In this document: in pieces, positions 6,167 to 18,257 of the stretch
How positions within the stretch are numbered: the first letter of the stretch is position 1
How the letters are laid out: each line of letters opens with the position of its first letter
Virus record (IMG/VR): IMGVR_UViG_3300042691_043283
Span: 1 to 39,929 of that record
Direction: 5' to 3' (one strand)
DNA from: a virus
Length of the DNA: 39,929 nt
The notes under the pieces: generated by a model
What the model was told of the DNA's origin: nothing
Seen by the model: the letters and a program-made list of their open reading frames with translations, nothing else
The model's database searches: none
Made by a program: the position numbers and the translations under genes

Positions 6167-7234
6167 TTACGCTTGATCGTTAACGTAAAGGGTTTCTAAA
6201 TCTGCGATCTCGCAACCTTGAATCCATTTTACAACAGTTGTATATCCGTGTAATGTTTCAATTACTTTTCCGGCTTTTGTAAGATCAGATTCAACGTTTG
6301 TGCCAAAAGCAAGATTATCTTTTTGTGTTGCAATTAAGCGGCTTGATGTTCCCATCCAAGAGCATTGCTCTAATTGCCATTTTGGATAACCGTAAACAGT
6401 TTTAGTGCCATCACCCATTTTTTGGTCAAGAGCAGCTGTGAAAGTAGCTTTTTCTTGTTTAAGGTATTTTGCATAAGATACTGGAGACATTCTAATAGTA
6501 CCACCTAAATTTCTATGAGCAACAGTCATCCCGTCGATCATTAATTCAACTTTATCCATTGCGTTAGCGTTAGTTAAAGCACCTGTAGTAATTAAATTAG
6601 CTCCAGTGATTCCACCACCAGCAATTTCATTTGCAATGATTTTACCCCAACCGGTTGAGATAATAGAATCGTTTACTAAGGTCCATTTTGCAGGTGCAGT
6701 TAAAGGCGACTCTCCTGCAACAGTTAAGGTAACACATTTGTATATATCTAATTCTGTTCCAAAAGAAATATACGAGTTAACCGCATAAACACTTGCTCCA
6801 TTGAATAACGCAGCGTTACCTTGATAATCCGATAAGTAAATATTATCGTTAATTTCTTGGCTGATCTTTTTAAATTCATTTTCCCACAACCATTGTGCAA
6901 AAGGAATTTCTTTAACACCCGGAGCCATCATATCGCTCAAAAAGGTATTATATACCTCTTCGGGTATTACATCAATAATTTTCATACCTGGGTAAACTAA
7001 AAGTTTACGTCCTGTATAAGCGCGGTGTGCTCCTGAGCGAGAATTAACGTCAGTATTTAAATTTCTAATGCCTTTTGCAATAGTCATTTTTTGTAAGCCT
7101 GTTCCGTTAAGAGATGCATTACGGATTACGCGAACTTGTTGAGCAAAGTCAAGACCGTTTAAGGCTTGACTAATTAATTTTTTATCATTGTTTCCAATGA
7201 ATTTTGCGACTGCGTCGAAGGTTGATTTTGGCAT
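6167..7234 (-). CDS. Major capsid protein
   Basis: This 355-residue protein builds the icosahedral head shell. It follows the maturation protease directly (34-base gap). It has the usual plan of phage capsid subunits: a helical N-terminal arm with charged residues (about 1-60), a mixed core with PGMKIIDVIPEEVYN, a long helix with WLWENEFKKISQEINDNIYL, an internal region with repeated small residues (about 200-220), and a C-terminal strand block. The ending CEIADLETLYVNDQA resembles the closing strand of Bacteroidota phage capsid proteins. No glutamine- or cysteine-rich cross-linking segment stands out. The start MPKSTFDAV is the only reasonable one. Confidence 0.85.
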   Translation of the reverse strand: MPKSTFDAVAKFIGNNDKKLISQALNGLDFAQQVRVIRNASLNGTGLQKMTIAKGIRNLNTDVNSRSGAHRAYTGRKLLVYPGMKIIDVIPEEVYNTFLSDMMAPGVKEIPFAQWLWENEFKKISQEINDNIYLSDYQGNAALFNGASVYAVNSYISFGTELDIYKCVTLTVAGESPLTAPAKWTLVNDSIISTGWGKIIANEIAGGGITGANLITTGALTNANAMDKVELMIDGMTVAHRNLGGTIRMSPVSYAKYLKQEKATFTAALDQKMGDGTKTVYGYPKWQLEQCSWMGTSSRLIATQKDNLAFGTNVESDLTKAGKVIETLHGYTTVVKWIQGCEIADLETLYVNDQA

Positions 7235-7268
7235 TTTATTTAAAAATTTTAGTTAATATTTTTTTTAA

Positions 7269-7670
7269 TTATTTGTATTCGCTTGGTACAGCAGCTTTTG
7301 TAGCTGCTAATTTTTCATCGTATTCAGTTTTGTAATCCGGCTTTTCATCTTCAGATATTATCTCGTTGCCTTTAATATCTGTTTTTGTAGCGCCTGGATT
7401 AGCTGCTTTTAAAGTAGCTATTTCAGTATCTTTTTCAGTTACTGAAGCCTCTAAAGCAGTTATTTTAGCAACGCTATCTGAACCTGCTTTTACAGAATCA
7501 GCAAGTTTTGCTGTAAGATCTGCGTTTGCAGTTTCTAACGCTTTAAATTTATCATCTAAGGCTTTTAAATGATCATCGTTTAAGCTATCTAAAGCTTCAG
7601 GTTTTTCAAATCCTGCTGCTGACAGTGCAACCGAAATGGTAGCAAATGCCGCTATTTTTAATTTACTCAT
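7269..7670 (-). CDS. Possible nested scaffold protein translated from within the protease gene
   Basis: Methionine 305 of the protease (MSKLKIAAFA) begins exactly at the start of the coiled-coil scaffold-like part and is preceded on the minus strand by an unbroken run of A residues, the kind of leader that supports initiation in Bacteroidota. In-frame expression would give a 133-residue scaffold without the protease. Phage lambda does the same with Nu3 inside gene C. The hydrophobic start of this segment (KIAAFATISVALSAAGF) is unusual for a scaffold and could instead be a helix that inserts into the capsid. This is inferred from sequence layout only. Confidence 0.35.
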   Translation of the reverse strand: MSKLKIAAFATISVALSAAGFEKPEALDSLNDDHLKALDDKFKALETANADLTAKLADSVKAGSDSVAKITALEASVTEKDTEIATLKAANPGATKTDIKGNEIISEDEKPDYKTEYDEKLAATKAAVPSEYK

Positions 7671-8582
7671 ATTTTTTTTTGGTTGGTTTTGCGTGGATGG
7701 ACTGCCGGCTAATTCAAAGGCTTTATCTATTGCCTGATTTAAGTTTCCGATAGAATCAATTAAGCCGTTGTTTACTGCGTCTGATGCTACATAAACTTTG
7801 CCTGTAAAAATGTTTTCTTTTTTAATATCAAATTTTCCTGCTCTATTTTCTTGAACAGAGGAAACAAAATGATTATTTAATGGGTCAAGCATTTCTGTTT
7901 TGATGCGATCGTAATTATTTTTACGAGCTTCAGCAAATGCCGCGTTTTTATCAGTGCTTTGTGTTGCGTAGACCTCATGAAACTTTACGCCCATTTTTTC
8001 CCAAACAGGTTGCATATCATTAAATGAGATCATTGTACCTATTGAACCAATTCGATCAGTAGCAGAATTAGCCATGATGTAATCTGCTGAAGAACCAGCC
8101 CAATACATTGCACTTGCCATTAAACCATCAACGAAAGTAACAACCGGTTTGGTTGTGGCTTTTATTACGTTAGCTAATGATTGTGTTCCGTCAACTGTTC
8201 CTCCTGGAGAATCGCATTGTAAAATAATTGCAGAAATATTTGGATTAGCATCCGCTGCAAAAATTAAAGACTCAAATGTTTTTGTTCCGGGATCGCCACA
8301 ATTATCATGTTTCATAATTGGACCATCAATTGAAATGATGGCAACTGAATTTGGCAATGCATTAGACAATTGAAGATCGTTTGCCGAATAAGGTGAACGA
8401 TTGCTGTCTACTAACGTAATAGAGTTTTTACATAATTCCTCGGCTGTTGATTTGTCAAGATCTTTCCAAAATGAACCTCCTGCTAAAATAGAAGCAACTG
8501 ATTCTCCTAAAGAAGCAGCTGCTTGTTGTTCGATGTACCAAAATCCATTGGTTATAGCGAGAAGAATATTTTTTTTAGACAT
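7269..8582 (-). CDS. Head maturation protease (peptidase S49/SppA-type) with C-terminal scaffold domain
   Basis: Residues about 78-285 form an S49 serine-lysine protease: IISIDGPI, the clan-typical DSPGGTVDG (124-132), the nucleophile S157 in LMASAMYWAG and a probable base K212 in TQSTDKNAAF. This fold processes scaffold and capsid proteins during head maturation. After a proline- and glutamine-rich linker (about 293-303), residues 305-437 are alanine-, lysine- and glutamate-rich and mostly coiled coil, as in phage scaffolds. A second start at Met305 could give free scaffold. The gene follows a TGTCCTTT element by 47 bases. The leader has an inverted repeat, 8581-8605, that includes part of the start codon. 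The major capsid gene follows. Confidence 0.85.
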   Translation of the reverse strand: MSKKNILLAITNGFWYIEQQAAASLGESVASILAGGSFWKDLDKSTAEELCKNSITLVDSNRSPYSANDLQLSNALPNSVAIISIDGPIMKHDNCGDPGTKTFESLIFAADANPNISAIILQCDSPGGTVDGTQSLANVIKATTKPVVTFVDGLMASAMYWAGSSADYIMANSATDRIGSIGTMISFNDMQPVWEKMGVKFHEVYATQSTDKNAAFAEARKNNYDRIKTEMLDPLNNHFVSSVQENRAGKFDIKKENIFTGKVYVASDAVNNGLIDSIGNLNQAIDKAFELAGSPSTQNQPKKNMSKLKIAAFATISVALSAAGFEKPEALDSLNDDHLKALDDKFKALETANADLTAKLADSVKAGSDSVAKITALEASVTEKDTEIATLKAANPGATKTDIKGNEIISEDEKPDYKTEYDEKLAATKAAVPSEYK

Positions 8583-9116: not shown

Positions 9117-9710
9117 TTATTGTGGCTGAGGGACATTAAGGTTTAAAATTTTTATTCTATAACGGTAATAATCTTTCTTTACTGTTTCGTAAGAAATGAC
9201 TTCAAAATTTAATTTAAGGGTATCAATAATAACTTTTGAGATGGCTGTTTTTATAGAAAATTCGTGACCGTTGAGTTCTTTTTTTATATCACGAATTCTA
9301 ACAATTAGATCTTTATTTGCAGCTTCTTTATTAATTAATTGAATGAGATCTAAATACTTTTTCTTCCAATTGGTTTGTTGCTCTTGAAGCGCTAATAGGC
9401 TATCTAGGTTAGTACGGGTTAAATTTTTAATGTAGTTATCTACTGCTGTATTAAACGTTCTGGTATTAACGGCATTAATATTAAAACCATCGTAGTTAAA
9501 GTTTTTTTCAGAGATATTGATGTAGATATCATCGGGATAATCAATACAACTATCGGTAGGCCTACTATTAACTTTAAACAACTGCGAAGTAGCTATTTTG
9601 TAAATAATGTGCTCATCTGGAATTGTTACCGGATTACCAAAATTACTCTCTAAATAAGCTTTAACAAGAGGCTTACATTTTACTTTTACGGTAAGAAAAT
9701 TTGAAGACAT
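9117..9710 (-). CDS. Hypothetical protein beside the repeat array (197 aa)
   Basis: I place the start at the ATG at 9710 (MSSNFLTVKVKCKPLVKAYL). A longer frame to 9815 adds a basic, low-complexity leader that crosses one of the GTTACAAA repeats. The N-terminal part, with VKAYLESNFGNPVTIPDEHI, is well ordered and resembles a small family of uncharacterised proteins in Bacteroidota phages and integrated elements. The middle is a long helix with an RDIKKELNGHEF block, and the C-terminal third is basic. It is the nearest gene to the phased repeats, so it is a reasonable candidate for the protein that binds them. That is a guess; no DNA-binding motif is certain. Confidence 0.6.
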   Translation of the reverse strand: MSSNFLTVKVKCKPLVKAYLESNFGNPVTIPDEHIIYKIATSQLFKVNSRPTDSCIDYPDDIYINISEKNFNYDGFNINAVNTRTFNTAVDNYIKNLTRTNLDSLLALQEQQTNWKKKYLDLIQLINKEAANKDLIVRIRDIKKELNGHEFSIKTAISKVIIDTLKLNFEVISYETVKKDYYRYRIKILNLNVPQPQ

Positions 9711-10329
9711 AGGCAAAAATATTAAGTGTTTCTTTGTAAAACGAATATCATGCCAAATTATTAGAAAGTGTTTTACGGGAATTTTTTTGTAACGATGTGA
9801 CGGTTGTGACAACACACCTTAAAATAATGATAACCAATAGTTTAATTAGTTACAAATACATTTTTAAGTTTGTAACGCCTTGCTTTTGATTTGTAACGAT
9901 TTGCTTTTTTGTTTTTGCGTTACAAATAGTTTGTAACGGTGCTATTTTAGTTACAAATCTTAATTTTTTTTTGTAACTGTAAAAAACTTAGTAAAATCGC
10001 ACTTTTCAGCCTATTAACTCCTTATTCTTTTATCTTCGTCACTAAGTTACAAAAAAAATATAAAATAATAATAAGAAGAAAGGGAAAAAAGAAAATTTTT
10101 GATTTTGATAAAAAAATGTGAAAATCGGGCCGCTGATCAGCTTATTTTTTAGGCCTAAATTTTCTAATAATTAGGGTTATGGTGGCGCGGGGGACGGATG
10201 GCTGAACTATACATAAAATAAAAAGCCCCGGATCACTCCAGGGCTTTAAATAGTTTTTAAATGCGGGCTAAACATCCGCGCGGTAAATTTTTTGTGGCCG
10301 GTTTATATGACTTAAAATAGTTCTAGATT
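9711..10329. other. Long non-coding gap with phased GTTACAAA repeats (candidate origin)
   Basis: No gene is supported in these 620 bases. The eight-base word GTTACAAA or its reverse complement occurs nine times: 9786, 9849, 9869, 9890, 9919, 9930, 9950, 9970 and 10046 (start positions). Between 9849 and 9970 the start-to-start steps are 20, 21, 29, 11, 20 and 20 bases, all close to whole turns of the helix, with both orientations mixed. To the right comes an A-rich tract (10050-10130) and the palindrome GCTGATCAGC at 10132-10141, then a GC-rich patch at about 10182-10200. Iterons beside an AT-rich unwinding zone are the plan of a replication origin. Cooperative repressor operators would be the other reading. 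Confidence 0.55.
10222..10285 (-). repeat. 64-base direct repeat, copy 1, containing a terminator
   Basis: Identical over 64 bases to 10577-10640. The pair brackets the 65-residue zinc-ribbon gene. The first 26 bases (10222-10247) form the AAAGCCC/GGGCTTT terminator hairpin. The second part contains a GCGG/CCGC inverted repeat. Copy 1 sits just downstream of the zinc-ribbon gene on the minus strand and probably ends its transcript before the repeat array. Confidence 0.9.
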
Positions 10330-10527
10330 TTACTGTGTGTAAGCGTAAAACTCTTCTTTGTTTCCGCATTTAGGACAAACCAAAAGGTACATGTCATTTA
10401 TTACGGGTGATTTATCAGCCGTATCGGAATGTTTTCCAATCCAATCGCATTTACAACATTTCCATTTTTTATTTACATCTACCTGATGAAAATCAGGAGG
10501 TAATAAATTTGTCTTATCTTTTTCCAT
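10330..10527 (-). CDS. Zinc-ribbon protein (65 aa)
   Basis: Two CxxC knuckles (C24-x2-C27 in WKCCKCDW and C51-x2-C54 in LVCPKCGN) in a 65-residue chain form a rubredoxin-like or transcription-factor-type zinc ribbon. The flanking residues are polar. Such small metal-binding proteins in phage early regions usually bind nucleic acid or another protein, for instance RNA polymerase. The gene is isolated between two perfect 64-base repeats, each with a terminator, so it appears to be a separate unit that could have been moved or duplicated as a block. The actual partner is unknown. Confidence 0.7.
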   Translation of the reverse strand: MEKDKTNLLPPDFHQVDVNKKWKCCKCDWIGKHSDTADKSPVINDMYLLVCPKCGNKEEFYAYTQ

Positions 10528-10576
10528 AATGTTTACGTTTACAAATTAAAGTTAATGATTTTATTTAAAATATAAT

Positions 10577-10640
10577 AAAGCCCCGGATCACTCCAGGGCT
10601 TTAAATAGTTTTTAAATGCGGGCTAAACATCCGCGCGGTA
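10577..10640 (-). repeat. 64-base direct repeat, copy 2, containing a terminator
   Basis: Perfect copy of 10222-10285, starting 355 bases to its right. The terminator hairpin is at 10577-10602. The end of the repeat overlaps the last codons of the small frame at 10623-10772, so leftward transcription from the 71-residue gene should stop here. Confidence 0.9.
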
Positions 10641-10772
10641 TATGTCCGGTTTAAATCGGGGCTCAAAGAATGAATAAAAGCCTTTTGCTACCATTTCTAT
10701 CTTAGGCTGAACTATTATAACAGCTGCATAAATGGATTGCATTAGGAAGATTATATTTAATGTTGATGGCAT
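10623..10772 (-). CDS. Possible 49-residue protein
   Basis: A frame from the ATG at 10772 begins 5 bases after the stop of the 71-residue gene and ends inside repeat copy 2. The N-terminal part (LNIIFLMQSIYAAVIIVQP) is hydrophobic enough for a membrane segment, and the rest is mixed with several aromatic residues. The spacing fits an operon. The stop codon falling in a duplicated block is a reason for doubt. Confidence 0.35.
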   Translation of the reverse strand: MPSTLNIIFLMQSIYAAVIIVQPKIEMVAKGFYSFFEPRFKPDIYRADV

Positions 10773-10777
10773 TTGTA

Positions 10778-10993
10778 TTAAGAGCTTGCGATTGTTACGC
10801 GTTCGGAAACTATTAAATTTGTTTTATCAAACAAAGGCTCGGCCGTTTCTTCATTGTGATATTCTTTTACGTGTATCCTAAATCTATTCATTCGATTTTC
10901 AACTTCGTTTTCTACTGCAGTTTGAATTTGATCGTTATCCATATCTTCCGGCACATATGCCTCGTATGTTATTACAGCTAATACTCTTTTCAT
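10778..10993 (-). CDS. Hypothetical protein (71 aa)
   Basis: A small acidic protein with a beta-alpha-beta look: the strand RVLAVITYEAYVPEDMD, a helix DNDQIQTAVENEVENRM, then the strand RFRIHVKEYH and a C-terminal strand. This ferredoxin-like plan is common among small phage early proteins and says little about function. It follows the 62-residue gene after 9 bases and belongs to the early operon. Confidence 0.55.
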   Translation of the reverse strand: MKRVLAVITYEAYVPEDMDNDQIQTAVENEVENRMNRFRIHVKEYHNEETAEPLFDKTNLIVSERVTIASS

Positions 10994-15030: not shown

Positions 15031-15234
15031 ATGGTTTTTTATTTGAGTTAATATTTTATTGTCTAGCATTTTTTGAAACTTTTCCGAGGTGATATCCTTC
15101 GAATTTTCTGAGTTCACGTTTAAAAGTTTTACGGTGGCCGGCAAAACTCTCCAATCGTCAGTTATTTTCCCGGAACGCTCAACGATTATAAAAAGTCGTT
15201 GCTCCTTGTCTAGATATCTGCTATATAATTCCAT
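15028..15234 (-). CDS. Hypothetical protein coupled to the primase-helicase (68 aa)
   Basis: The ATG overlaps the stop of the primase-helicase gene by one base, so ribosomes can re-initiate here. The protein starts with a strand block (QRLFIIVERSGKI), then WRVLPATVKLLNV, and ends in a helix with basic residues. A small partner or accessory of the replication protein is likely from the coupling. No family recognised. Confidence 0.55.
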   Translation of the reverse strand: MELYSRYLDKEQRLFIIVERSGKITDDWRVLPATVKLLNVNSENSKDITSEKFQKMLDNKILTQIKNH

Positions 15235-18200
15235 TAATATGGTAAATCATCGTTTAAATTATTACTAAATATCCCTGGACCTTCTGGCATTTTTACTGCA
15301 GATATTCCCTCTTTAATTTCCGTTACTTCAGTATCTTTAAAATGTTCGGGATTAAGCGCTCCTTCAGTAGTTTTTATGTAAATCATTTCTGTGGCCACCT
15401 TATCGGCTAAAACTTCTTTCATGGTTCCGTCTTCCTGTTTTTTGAATACTCTTTCAAACTGACCATCAGGGCGTTTTTTATGCGCCTTTTTAATAATACG
15501 CTTACCGCTATTTTGAACAGCAACCGGATTAAACTCAAATTTGTAATACTTACACCAAGCTTCTAAACAAGAAGTAAAGCGCTGCGGCGAAAATTGCTTT
15601 ACGTTACATGATTTTATAAAATCGCTCATCGCTTCTTGTCTTGGAACAAACTCATCTGTTCGTCCGGATTGATAGCTGAAATAAACATCAGCCCAACCAA
15701 GGAATGCATCACCCATAATACCTTGTAGGTTTCTGCGGCTTACGTTATCTCCCGGAGGATTAACCTTGTAAGGAATTACCATATAAGACTGTAGGCATCT
15801 TACCATTGTGTTTATAAACAAATTCCATTCCTCATCTGTAAAATCATCAAATAGATCTTTTCCAAAATCATGTTTTGCGGTGCGCTCTTCGTTATAATCA
15901 CCGGTCATGTTATTATGGTAGTAATCACAAAATGAAGAGTAAATTAAACGACGCTCGGCAGAACTTGTAATGTTTCTAACGCCATAGTTTGATGTAAACA
16001 TAAACCTTGCGCTTGTTTTGTAAGGAATAATAAAACGCTGATTGTATTTAGGATTAACAGTAAGATCTTCGGTGATCATCGAAAAGAAAGGTTCTATTCC
16101 TACATACTGAGAAAGGTCATCAATAAGGATCTGTTCAGTTTGCTCGGTAACATTTTCAAACGCAAACTTATCATCCGTTAACGATTTGCTTTTACCGTCA
16201 ATTAATAAGAAATCTAAAAAGTGTTCTACCGATCGGGCAAAAATTGTTTTACCGGATCCACCATGCGATTCTCCTTCAGCCGATAATTTATGATCCATTA
16301 AAAATGGGGCCCAGGCTTTTGATTTTTCTTTGTGGCGTGAAAGTGTGTAACCTAATACATATAATTTATTAATAAGGTGTTTTTTTTGCTCCGTCTGCTC
16401 TTCTTTTGTAAGAAGTGGACCTGCGATGTTAAATTTATTATCAAGCCTGTATTTTTCTCTTTCTTCAGTTGTTGCATATTCTTTTTCGCAACGTTCTTCT
16501 AACTCAACACGCCAATGAATGCGGCAAGTGTTTATAAGGTAGCAAAGGAATAAACATTTATTATTATGAATTTCAATATCCAATTCGCTAGTTCCGTTAG
16601 GATTTTGAACCTCTTTAATTGTAAAAATTGGATCTAGTTTTTTAACCTTGTGTTTAATAACCTTATTTTCCCAAACCATTTTGGTGATGTCGCCAGGGCG
16701 ATGCTCGATAATATCTTGAGCTGTTACTTGCCAAGTTTTATTTTTAAAAAAGAAGTATTGGTAATCTTTATCGTAATACTTAAAGTCCGGCTCAATAAAC
16801 TTTAAGTTGTCTAGTGAGTCATCCTTTAACTGTGGCGATCTGAAAAAAGTATTACGAAGCTTTTGATCAGCCGTGTAACGCTCCTCTAGGAATTGATTTA
16901 TAAACGCTTTAACGGCTTTACCTTTAACAACTTTTACAACATTATTTACAATGTGAACATACTCCTCACCATCTTTAGATGTTTTTGAAACGATGCGATG
17001 AAAGCCACAAGCTTGAATAAAATTGTAAGCGCGAACGTTATTAAAAACATAAACACTTTTTTTCTTATTACCGTTTTTATCGTAGCCGGTATCCTCCTCA
17101 TCCCAAAATTTATATTCTAAAGCATTTTCTACAAGCTTTTCAAAATCCTTTGCTCTCCAATACGATAAATAATCTCTAACATCTTTGCACTTATTACCGC
17201 GCCAGTCTGTTTTTTCCATCAACTCAGCAGGTAGTTTTATGGTTTTCATTTCCATAAACTTCAATGCTTTTTTGTGAGCCTGGCGTTGGCCGGTAGTATC
17301 AAGATCAGGAAGTAAATAAACATTTTTTGCTTTTGATGAAAGTGAAATGTATGTTTTATAAGGCATTACCTGCTCTTCGGAGTTAAGCCAGATAACATTA
17401 TAACCTAATGCCGCAACATTGATAGAATCACGATCTCCACTGCATTCAATAACGTCTTCTAGCTTATAACTTTTTTCTACATATTCCCCTGCAGCAGCTT
17501 TGTCTTCTTTTTCGTTCAGCCATTTTTTTTCACCTTCGGCCCATGTATGGCAAAATCTTGCGTAGCCAAAAATATAATCGTTACTTTTTTTACCAGAGTA
17601 TCTGAATCTATATTTTTTATCAAGCGCTTTGGGTTGGTATATTTTAACAAACGTGTCGCCTTTTATTACAAAAATCGGATACTTATCAGTTGACTTGGTT
17701 ATTTTGGCAATGCCGTCTTTTATGTAAGTAAAAGATATTAATGAGAAAAAACCATAAGCAGCGCAAACCTTATTCAGGTATATTTTCCAATCATCTTTGT
17801 GCACATTAAAAGCATAATCAATTACATGCTTAGCAAAAACGGTTTCAATTTCAAACTCATTTAATGTGTCTTTATATTCAAAAGAGTAATCGCCTTCTTT
17901 TTCAAGCTCTGTTGAATTTCTTTTTTCACGAATAGGTAAAAATACTTCGGGGGGGGCGGCGTTATCAAAAACGCCGTATTGAGTTGCTAAAATTTTAATA
18001 GCATCTTTTAACTCAACACTTTCCTTGTACATATAAAGATTAACAGCGCCTCCGCTGAAATCGCCGCCATGATCTTTTACGTAATAATTACCGTTATCGC
18101 CTTTTTTTATAGTGCTAGAAGGCGTTTTTTCGCTATCTCTTATTTTAAACGCACGGTTATTGTTTACACATTTTTCGGCCTCAGGATAAAGTGAGAGAAT

Positions 18201-18257
18201 AATGTCAAGTCCGCCATTGGTGCGGTCTAAAATTTGTTGTATAATATCTTTACTCAT
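15234..18257 (-). CDS. Phage primase-helicase (Toprim plus SF3-type ATPase)
   Basis: One 1007-residue protein that probably makes primers and unwinds phage DNA. Residues 30-100 look like the DNA-binding front of DnaG (FKIRDSEKTPS, KDHGGDFSGGAVNLYM) but lack zinc-binding cysteines. A Toprim catalytic domain follows: E271 in VIECSGDRDS and D318/D320 in LLPDLDTTG. After a long middle region comes the helicase: Walker A SHGGSGKT (664-671), Walker B ILIDD (710-714), sensor N757 in FTSNYG and probable arginine finger R769/R770. Residues about 853-961 are a winged-helix-like domain repeated as a separate gene at 14560. The next gene overlaps by one base. It is the core replication protein, and no separate DNA polymerase is encoded. 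Confidence 0.88.
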   Translation of the reverse strand: MSKDIIQQILDRTNGGLDIILSLYPEAEKCVNNNRAFKIRDSEKTPSSTIKKGDNGNYYVKDHGGDFSGGAVNLYMYKESVELKDAIKILATQYGVFDNAAPPEVFLPIREKRNSTELEKEGDYSFEYKDTLNEFEIETVFAKHVIDYAFNVHKDDWKIYLNKVCAAYGFFSLISFTYIKDGIAKITKSTDKYPIFVIKGDTFVKIYQPKALDKKYRFRYSGKKSNDYIFGYARFCHTWAEGEKKWLNEKEDKAAAGEYVEKSYKLEDVIECSGDRDSINVAALGYNVIWLNSEEQVMPYKTYISLSSKAKNVYLLPDLDTTGQRQAHKKALKFMEMKTIKLPAELMEKTDWRGNKCKDVRDYLSYWRAKDFEKLVENALEYKFWDEEDTGYDKNGNKKKSVYVFNNVRAYNFIQACGFHRIVSKTSKDGEEYVHIVNNVVKVVKGKAVKAFINQFLEERYTADQKLRNTFFRSPQLKDDSLDNLKFIEPDFKYYDKDYQYFFFKNKTWQVTAQDIIEHRPGDITKMVWENKVIKHKVKKLDPIFTIKEVQNPNGTSELDIEIHNNKCLFLCYLINTCRIHWRVELEERCEKEYATTEEREKYRLDNKFNIAGPLLTKEEQTEQKKHLINKLYVLGYTLSRHKEKSKAWAPFLMDHKLSAEGESHGGSGKTIFARSVEHFLDFLLIDGKSKSLTDDKFAFENVTEQTEQILIDDLSQYVGIEPFFSMITEDLTVNPKYNQRFIIPYKTSARFMFTSNYGVRNITSSAERRLIYSSFCDYYHNNMTGDYNEERTAKHDFGKDLFDDFTDEEWNLFINTMVRCLQSYMVIPYKVNPPGDNVSRRNLQGIMGDAFLGWADVYFSYQSGRTDEFVPRQEAMSDFIKSCNVKQFSPQRFTSCLEAWCKYYKFEFNPVAVQNSGKRIIKKAHKKRPDGQFERVFKKQEDGTMKEVLADKVATEMIYIKTTEGALNPEHFKDTEVTEIKEGISAVKMPEGPGIFSNNLNDDLPY

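Follow-up and report, generated by a model that had tools for sequence, protein, structure and literature searches.

A probable iteron origin in a Bacteroidota phage, with the winged helix of a primase-helicase as its predicted reader

Introduction

What reads a cluster of short repeats lying in the gap between the early and late genes of a phage, and what is such a cluster for? We addressed this question in IMG/VR virus record IMGVR_UViG_3300042691_043283, the whole of which (39,929 bases) was analyzed and is referred to here as the window. Nearly all window genes lie on the minus strand, and the early/replication genes are followed, in order, by two terminators, the repeat array and the structural (late) operon. 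A preliminary description of the array had left the choice between an iteron origin and a cooperative operator, and had named two candidate binders, a 197-residue neighbor and a detached winged-helix protein. Our results indicate that the repeated word covaries instead with the C-terminal winged helix of the primase-helicase, and that, of the two functions, the evidence favors the iteron origin. Most probably, the array is where replication begins in this virus, whose hosts are Bacteroidota. What is new here is the identification, by covariation, of the binder of the array words; that the array is an origin is likely.

Results

A repeat cluster far above chance

Exact counting on both strands identified nine GTTACAAA words in the array (Table 1) and 0 elsewhere in the window, which agrees with the number and the mixed orientations first described. 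The comparison with shuffled controls also bore out the cluster, as 100 dinucleotide shuffles of the whole window contained 2.67 copies on average (maximum, 7), and 20,000 draws from a first-order Markov model of the A+T-rich local sequence averaged 0.10 copies, with a maximum of 4. Clustered short repeats far above chance in a non-coding gap, as are expected of an iteron origin, are thus present. The array includes a palindromic pair, GTTACAAA-TAG-TTTGTAAC, at 9919-9937, and two pairs with 12-base spacers (9849/9869 and 9950/9970). It is adjoined by the A-rich tract and the GCTGATCAGC palindrome that had been noted beside it, and the tract may be the region that melts.

The start-to-start intervals are 63, 20, 21, 29, 11, 20, 20, and 76 bases. 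Six of the eight are close to whole helical turns, the number given previously, although the interval of 29 bases (2.76 turns) that had been listed among them is off phase, as is that of 76 (7.24 turns). Helical phasing in the window alone is marginal (P = 0.056).

Table 1 Coordinates of features in the window and of helicase-adjacent arrays in other loci
Feature	Coordinates	Strand	Remarks
Iteron array	9786..10053	both	Nine GTTACAAA; homologous arrays in related phages
GTTACAAA word starts	9786, 9849, 9869, 9890, 9919, 9930, 9950, 9970, 10046	-, +, -, -, +, -, +, -, +	
A-rich tract	10054..10125		86% A+T; adjoins array
Palindrome GCTGATCAGC	10132..10141		
Primase-helicase, 1007 amino acids, DUF5906/D5-like	15234..18257	-	Predicted initiator; PF19263, 8.9e-7
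C-terminal winged-helix domain, residues 840-975	15333..15740	-	Predicted iteron reader; AlphaFold2 mean pLDDT (predicted local distance difference test) 93
Wing strand R920-I-I922-K-K924	15486..15500	-	Covariation; strand placement from AlphaFold2
Detached winged-helix protein, 109 amino acids	14560..14889	-	Stand-alone relative of primase C terminus
197-residue protein, first late-operon gene	9117..9710	-	Conserved family beside array
Second late gene, 165 amino acids	8617..9114	-	
Late-operon protease-like and capsid genes	6167..8582	-	Mark early/late boundary
Terminator-like hairpin closing early transcription unit	10222..10247	-	Inside duplicated 67-base module
Second terminator hairpin	10577-10603	-	
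Second copy of 67-base terminator module	10577..10643	-	99% identical to first copy
GTTACAAA arrays beside helicase genes	L110:2530-2768, L073:10270-10509, L102:2726-3047, L057:1741-2070, L089:53-195, L015:1152-1445		Other loci

The array word covaries with the wing of the primase-helicase

A set of 80 loci was fetched with the primase profile alone, without using the word. In the majority, the 8-mer with the strongest clustering 3' of the primase gene was GTTACAAA or a near variant. A single-sequence scan of IMG/VR with the window primase found no relatives. The words found across phages include GTTACAAA, GTTACACT, GTTACATT, ATTACAAA, GTTAAGAA, GTTAATAA, GTTAAAGA, GTCACAAA, and GATACAAA.

Every primase column (916) was scored against each word position. 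Residue 924 ranked first among the 916 columns for word position 1 (score, 0.24 to 0.32; next column, 0.12; shuffled labels, at most 0.16); in a set of 86 rows, G1 occurs with K or R at this residue in 67, and A1 occurs mostly with N, S, or T. For word position 5, residue 920 ranked first or second on the full residue alphabet, with C5 accompanying R920 in 74 of the 86 rows and A5 accompanying K, L, N, or P in 9, and Q922 goes with C3. AlphaFold2 places residues 920, 922, and 924 at the start of a strand, alternating along the wing. On a tree built from the primase without its winged-helix domain, 12 changes of word position 1 and 11 of residue 924 were counted; among 12 independent pairs, the residue shifted in the matching direction in 9.3 on average and in the reverse direction in none (median p = 0.004).

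Loci outside the discovery set, from other contigs and bacterial genomes, mostly obey this residue-word rule, with some of the bacterial-genome loci duplicating discovery-set phages and therefore not being independent. Loci L003 and L014, which were not used for discovery, also follow it, and so do loci with new residues, namely, P920 with GTTAATAA (L269), N920 with GTTAAAAA (L282), and N924 with ATTACAAA (L254). Two cultured relatives were examined, neither of which has an annotated origin. Phage Leef_1 of Polaribacter AHE13PA carries L924, and 12 ATTACA words precede its first late gene; phage BT-TP2 of Bacteroides thetaiotaomicron combines R920 and K924 with four GTTACAAA words in the corresponding gap. 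A role of the primase-helicase as the protein that would bind the array words is supported by sequence covariation.

The primase part of the protein gave a weak match to PHROG, and neither the winged helix nor the whole primase had a useful match in profile searches of the PDB. No NCBIfam model matches the primases or the family of the 197-residue protein, and the latter, whose alignment proved too variable for use in a scan, also has no PHROG or confident Pfam match.

Arrays in related phages

For statistics on the arrays, near-duplicates and loci without a convincing word were dropped, leaving 58 loci. In the relatives, arrays of 8 to 16 copies of a word that varies between phages occupy the same early/late boundary (median, 10 copies, counting words with at most one mismatch), at a distance of 0.3 to 7.1 kilobases (kb) 3' of the primase gene. 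The arrays are 11 points richer in A+T than their own loci, a flanking A+T core is not consistent, and the phages that carry them span 28 to 56% GC. When the 58 phages were pooled, a phase of 10.5 base pairs (bp) was clear (R = 0.222; largest jittered control, 0.086), with peaks of adjacent spacing at 8, 11 to 12, and 18 to 22 bp, so that the proposal of helical phasing holds for the family. Exact spacing is another matter. Locus L003, which carries the only close relative of the 197-residue protein in IMG/VR (59% identical), has five words in the same place at intervals of 64, 39, 145, and 33. The preliminary description had named a lack of conserved spacing in related phages as refuting it, and taken literally this applies to the exact spacing. 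The word, copy number, position, and helical phase are conserved.

A scan for inverted word pairs 10 to 14 bases apart pointed to the same association. Among the 120 matches listed, 24 have at least 5 words per 330 bp, and 10 of the 120 contigs encode a relative of the window primase-helicase, whereas among the 120 matches listed for a reversed-word control both numbers were 0. In phages that appear to be unrelated, GTTACAAA arrays also adjoin helicase genes of the VapE/DUF5906, D5, or DUF3987 type (Table 1). The D5-type protein of one of these (L089) ends in ...INGRIIRVYTE, like the wing of the window primase family. Three pieces of 5 to 14 kb (L034, L055, and L090) contain 30 to 76 GTTACAAA copies distributed over many clusters, which is a different phenomenon.

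Locus L179 appeared to be an exception, with GATAAGAA accompanying R920, but its sequence proved to contain GTTACAAA and GATACAAA words next to another repeat, AAGATAAG. The AAGATAAG/GATAAGAA repeats are interleaved with these words at L179:11690-11940, within the same gap, and are possibly sites of a second regulator.

The detached winged-helix protein

The wing of the detached protein, GRIIRR, predicts the same word as the window array. Among the loci examined, this protein is essentially unique to the window phage, whereas the array is general, and we therefore rejected it as the general binder; it may be a second binder in the window phage. By analogy, it may act as a copy-number regulator that would compete with the primase-helicase for the words. 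Winged helices of the P4 system reportedly heterodimerize, to judge from the title of a 2002 paper by Yeo and colleagues that is cited in PMC4234260.

Surroundings of the array

The array lies 3' of the replication genes, past both minus-strand terminators and 5' of the structural operon, which places it at the early/late boundary, as had been proposed. The A+T content of the array region is 74%, and that of the genome is 66%. A 67-base module consisting of the terminator hairpin and GCGGGCTAAACATCCGCGCGG occurs twice (10222-10288 and 10577-10643), with a small zinc-ribbon-like open reading frame (10330-10527) between the copies. An Rfam scan of 9500-10800 gave no match. The family of the 197-residue protein is common as the first late gene (also at L330:5501-5989).

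Comparison with known systems

P4 alpha is a primase-helicase fusion whose C-terminal winged helix binds origin repeats, according to a passage in PMC4234260, which cites Yeo et al. 2002. The P4 genome served as a positive control, and the same clustering statistic ranked TGTTCACC, the annotated ori type 1 repeats, first. The P4 ori comprises six 8-bp words of mixed orientation within about 100 bp, and sid, a late gene, follows 170 bp further on. P4 and the window phage are thus alike in having 8-bp repeats in both orientations in a gap before the late operon. They differ in the word (TGTTCACC in P4, GTTACAAA in the window phage) and in the second array (crr) of P4, as second word clusters are essentially absent from the related phages that were examined. 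The winged helices of the two proteins have no sequence relation in hhalign (probability, 0.4%) or hmmsearch. The window primase-helicase may, by analogy, work like P4 alpha, and we do not claim its membership in the P4 alpha family.

In the origins of Staphylococcus aureus pathogenicity islands (SaPIs) and phage-inducible islands, sets of iterons flank an A+T-rich region (PMC6092414). Those origins directly follow rep, unlike the arrays of the window family with their variable distance from the primase gene, and their two iteron sets around an A+T-rich core are not seen as a rule in the window family. Cch2, a D5-like helicase of a staphylococcal cassette, has a C-terminal domain that in isolation binds repeats downstream of the gene (PMC7581432). 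These are three 5-base AAGTG direct repeats in another host and another type of element, and the likeness to the window family is one of description. In both SaPI and staphylococcal cassette helicases, the C-terminal domains act on iterons downstream of their own genes (PMC7581432, PMC6092414).

Small plasmids with distant primase-helicases were also checked. In Salinibacter ruber plasmid pSR14, the primase-helicase gene is followed directly on its 3' side by seven GTGGTCCA words (L331:4765-4994), which are probably the origin of that plasmid. This case agrees with an origin function but is unrelated in sequence.

Discussion

We propose, with a probability of roughly 0.7, that the array is an iteron origin resembling that of P4 alpha and read by the C-terminal winged helix of the primase-helicase. 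With the replicative primase-helicase as the predicted word reader, the array would most naturally function as an origin. The primase-helicase, produced from the early operon, would bind the 8-bp words through its winged helix, with residues 920, 922, and 924 along the wing strand matched to word positions 5, 3, and 1. About ten words, in both orientations and on one face of the DNA, could gather enough protomers to form helicase hexamers at an A+T-rich site, where these would melt the DNA, load, and prime. We infer replication from the array, as well as the physical contact of the wing and the loading of hexamers, from the pattern of conservation and covariation. Occupancy of the array may affect late transcription too, given that the early terminators lie on one side of the array and the first late gene on the other. 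We give even odds to a more specific proposal, in which wing strand residues i, i+2, and i+4 would specify bases 5, 3, and 1, the origin word of a Bacteroidota phage could be predicted from three residues, and the array may tie late transcription to replication.

Several observations weigh against the main proposal. The signal at word position 3 is weak, with residue 922 ranking between 1 and 11 depending on the set and being outranked by K78 once long branches are removed. At position 5, residue 920 falls to rank 10 when K and R are grouped, the base changes only 3 times on the tree, which is too few for a test, and the signal could possibly be due to hitch-hiking, since P835 covaries too. 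For a few loci, the automatic consensus was poor and the word was set manually. The rule has exceptions at residue 924 (L274, with N924 and G1; L151, with R924 and A1; L160, with K924 and A1), at residue 920 (L194, with Y920 and C5; the distant Chryseobacterium loci L319 and L321, with N920 and C5), and at residue 922 (L278, with Q922 but T3 in a GTTACA cluster). At some loci, among them L241/L310 and L142/L165, as much as 10 kb of sequence 3' of the primase gene showed no array. Third-position GC skew, for which a plot had been suggested, does not favor a bidirectional origin at the array; the expected step is absent, and the small step that is present runs in the wrong direction. Finally, in 54 of the 58 phages, no more than 600 bp lie between the array and the first late gene downstream, however far away the primase gene is, and an operator of the late genes would equally predict this position.

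Such a late-operon operator, through which the primase-helicase or another early protein would switch on or hold off a late promoter while replication starts elsewhere, would also account for the terminators upstream, which imply that the late genes need a promoter here. We nevertheless consider it unlikely, as the covarying domain belongs to the replicative primase-helicase and 0.7 to 2.1 kb separate the array from the late operon in four phages. Moreover, the arrays of unrelated phages adjoin helicase genes, and those in L110 and L073 are away from late genes. The mapped P4 origin likewise lies just before a late operon, so that a position next to late genes does not speak against an origin. 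A combination of origin and late operator, in which occupancy by the initiator couples replication to late transcription, is suggested by the conserved place between terminator and late gene together with the covariation of the initiator, but the Bacteroidota-type promoter pattern that we tried (TTTG-N17-23-TAnnTTTG) had 0 matches in the window, and we judge this combination to be quite improbable.

The 197-residue protein would be an obvious candidate if the array were an operator for autoregulation of the late operon, as its gene lies directly downstream, within 600 bp, in 43 of the 58 phages, and its BT-TP2 copy is annotated as a transcriptional regulator. This protein was rejected as the word reader. 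Its best covariation score is 0.13 (positions 1 and 5), versus 0.27 and 0.46 for the primase, and its near relatives in L138, L132, and L145 go with different words. Besides the 43 arrays that precede a member of its family, the other 11 of the 54 have the same kind of words but precede another late gene, which belongs to the family built with the 165-residue protein, and have no adjacent member of the 197-residue family. This operator is thus very improbable. A chance or low-complexity artifact might be suspected from the base composition of the gap, but this suspicion is already refuted by the local Markov control and is at odds both with the recurrence of arrays in phages across a wide range of GC content and with the empty reversed-word control; we regard it as hardly credible.

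If the array is an origin read by the primase-helicase, as we propose, a probable origin has been located and its initiator named for a large family of temperate phages, whose hosts include Mucilaginibacter, Pedobacter, Larkinella, Spirosoma, Algoriphagus, marine Flavobacteriia, and gut Bacteroidales. The residue-to-base rule for the specificity between initiator and origin can be tested, including in the cultured phages Leef_1 and BT-TP2. It would be of use in matching initiators to origins and for phage-derived shuttle vectors in Bacteroidota, and it bears on how origin specificity drifts between related phages.
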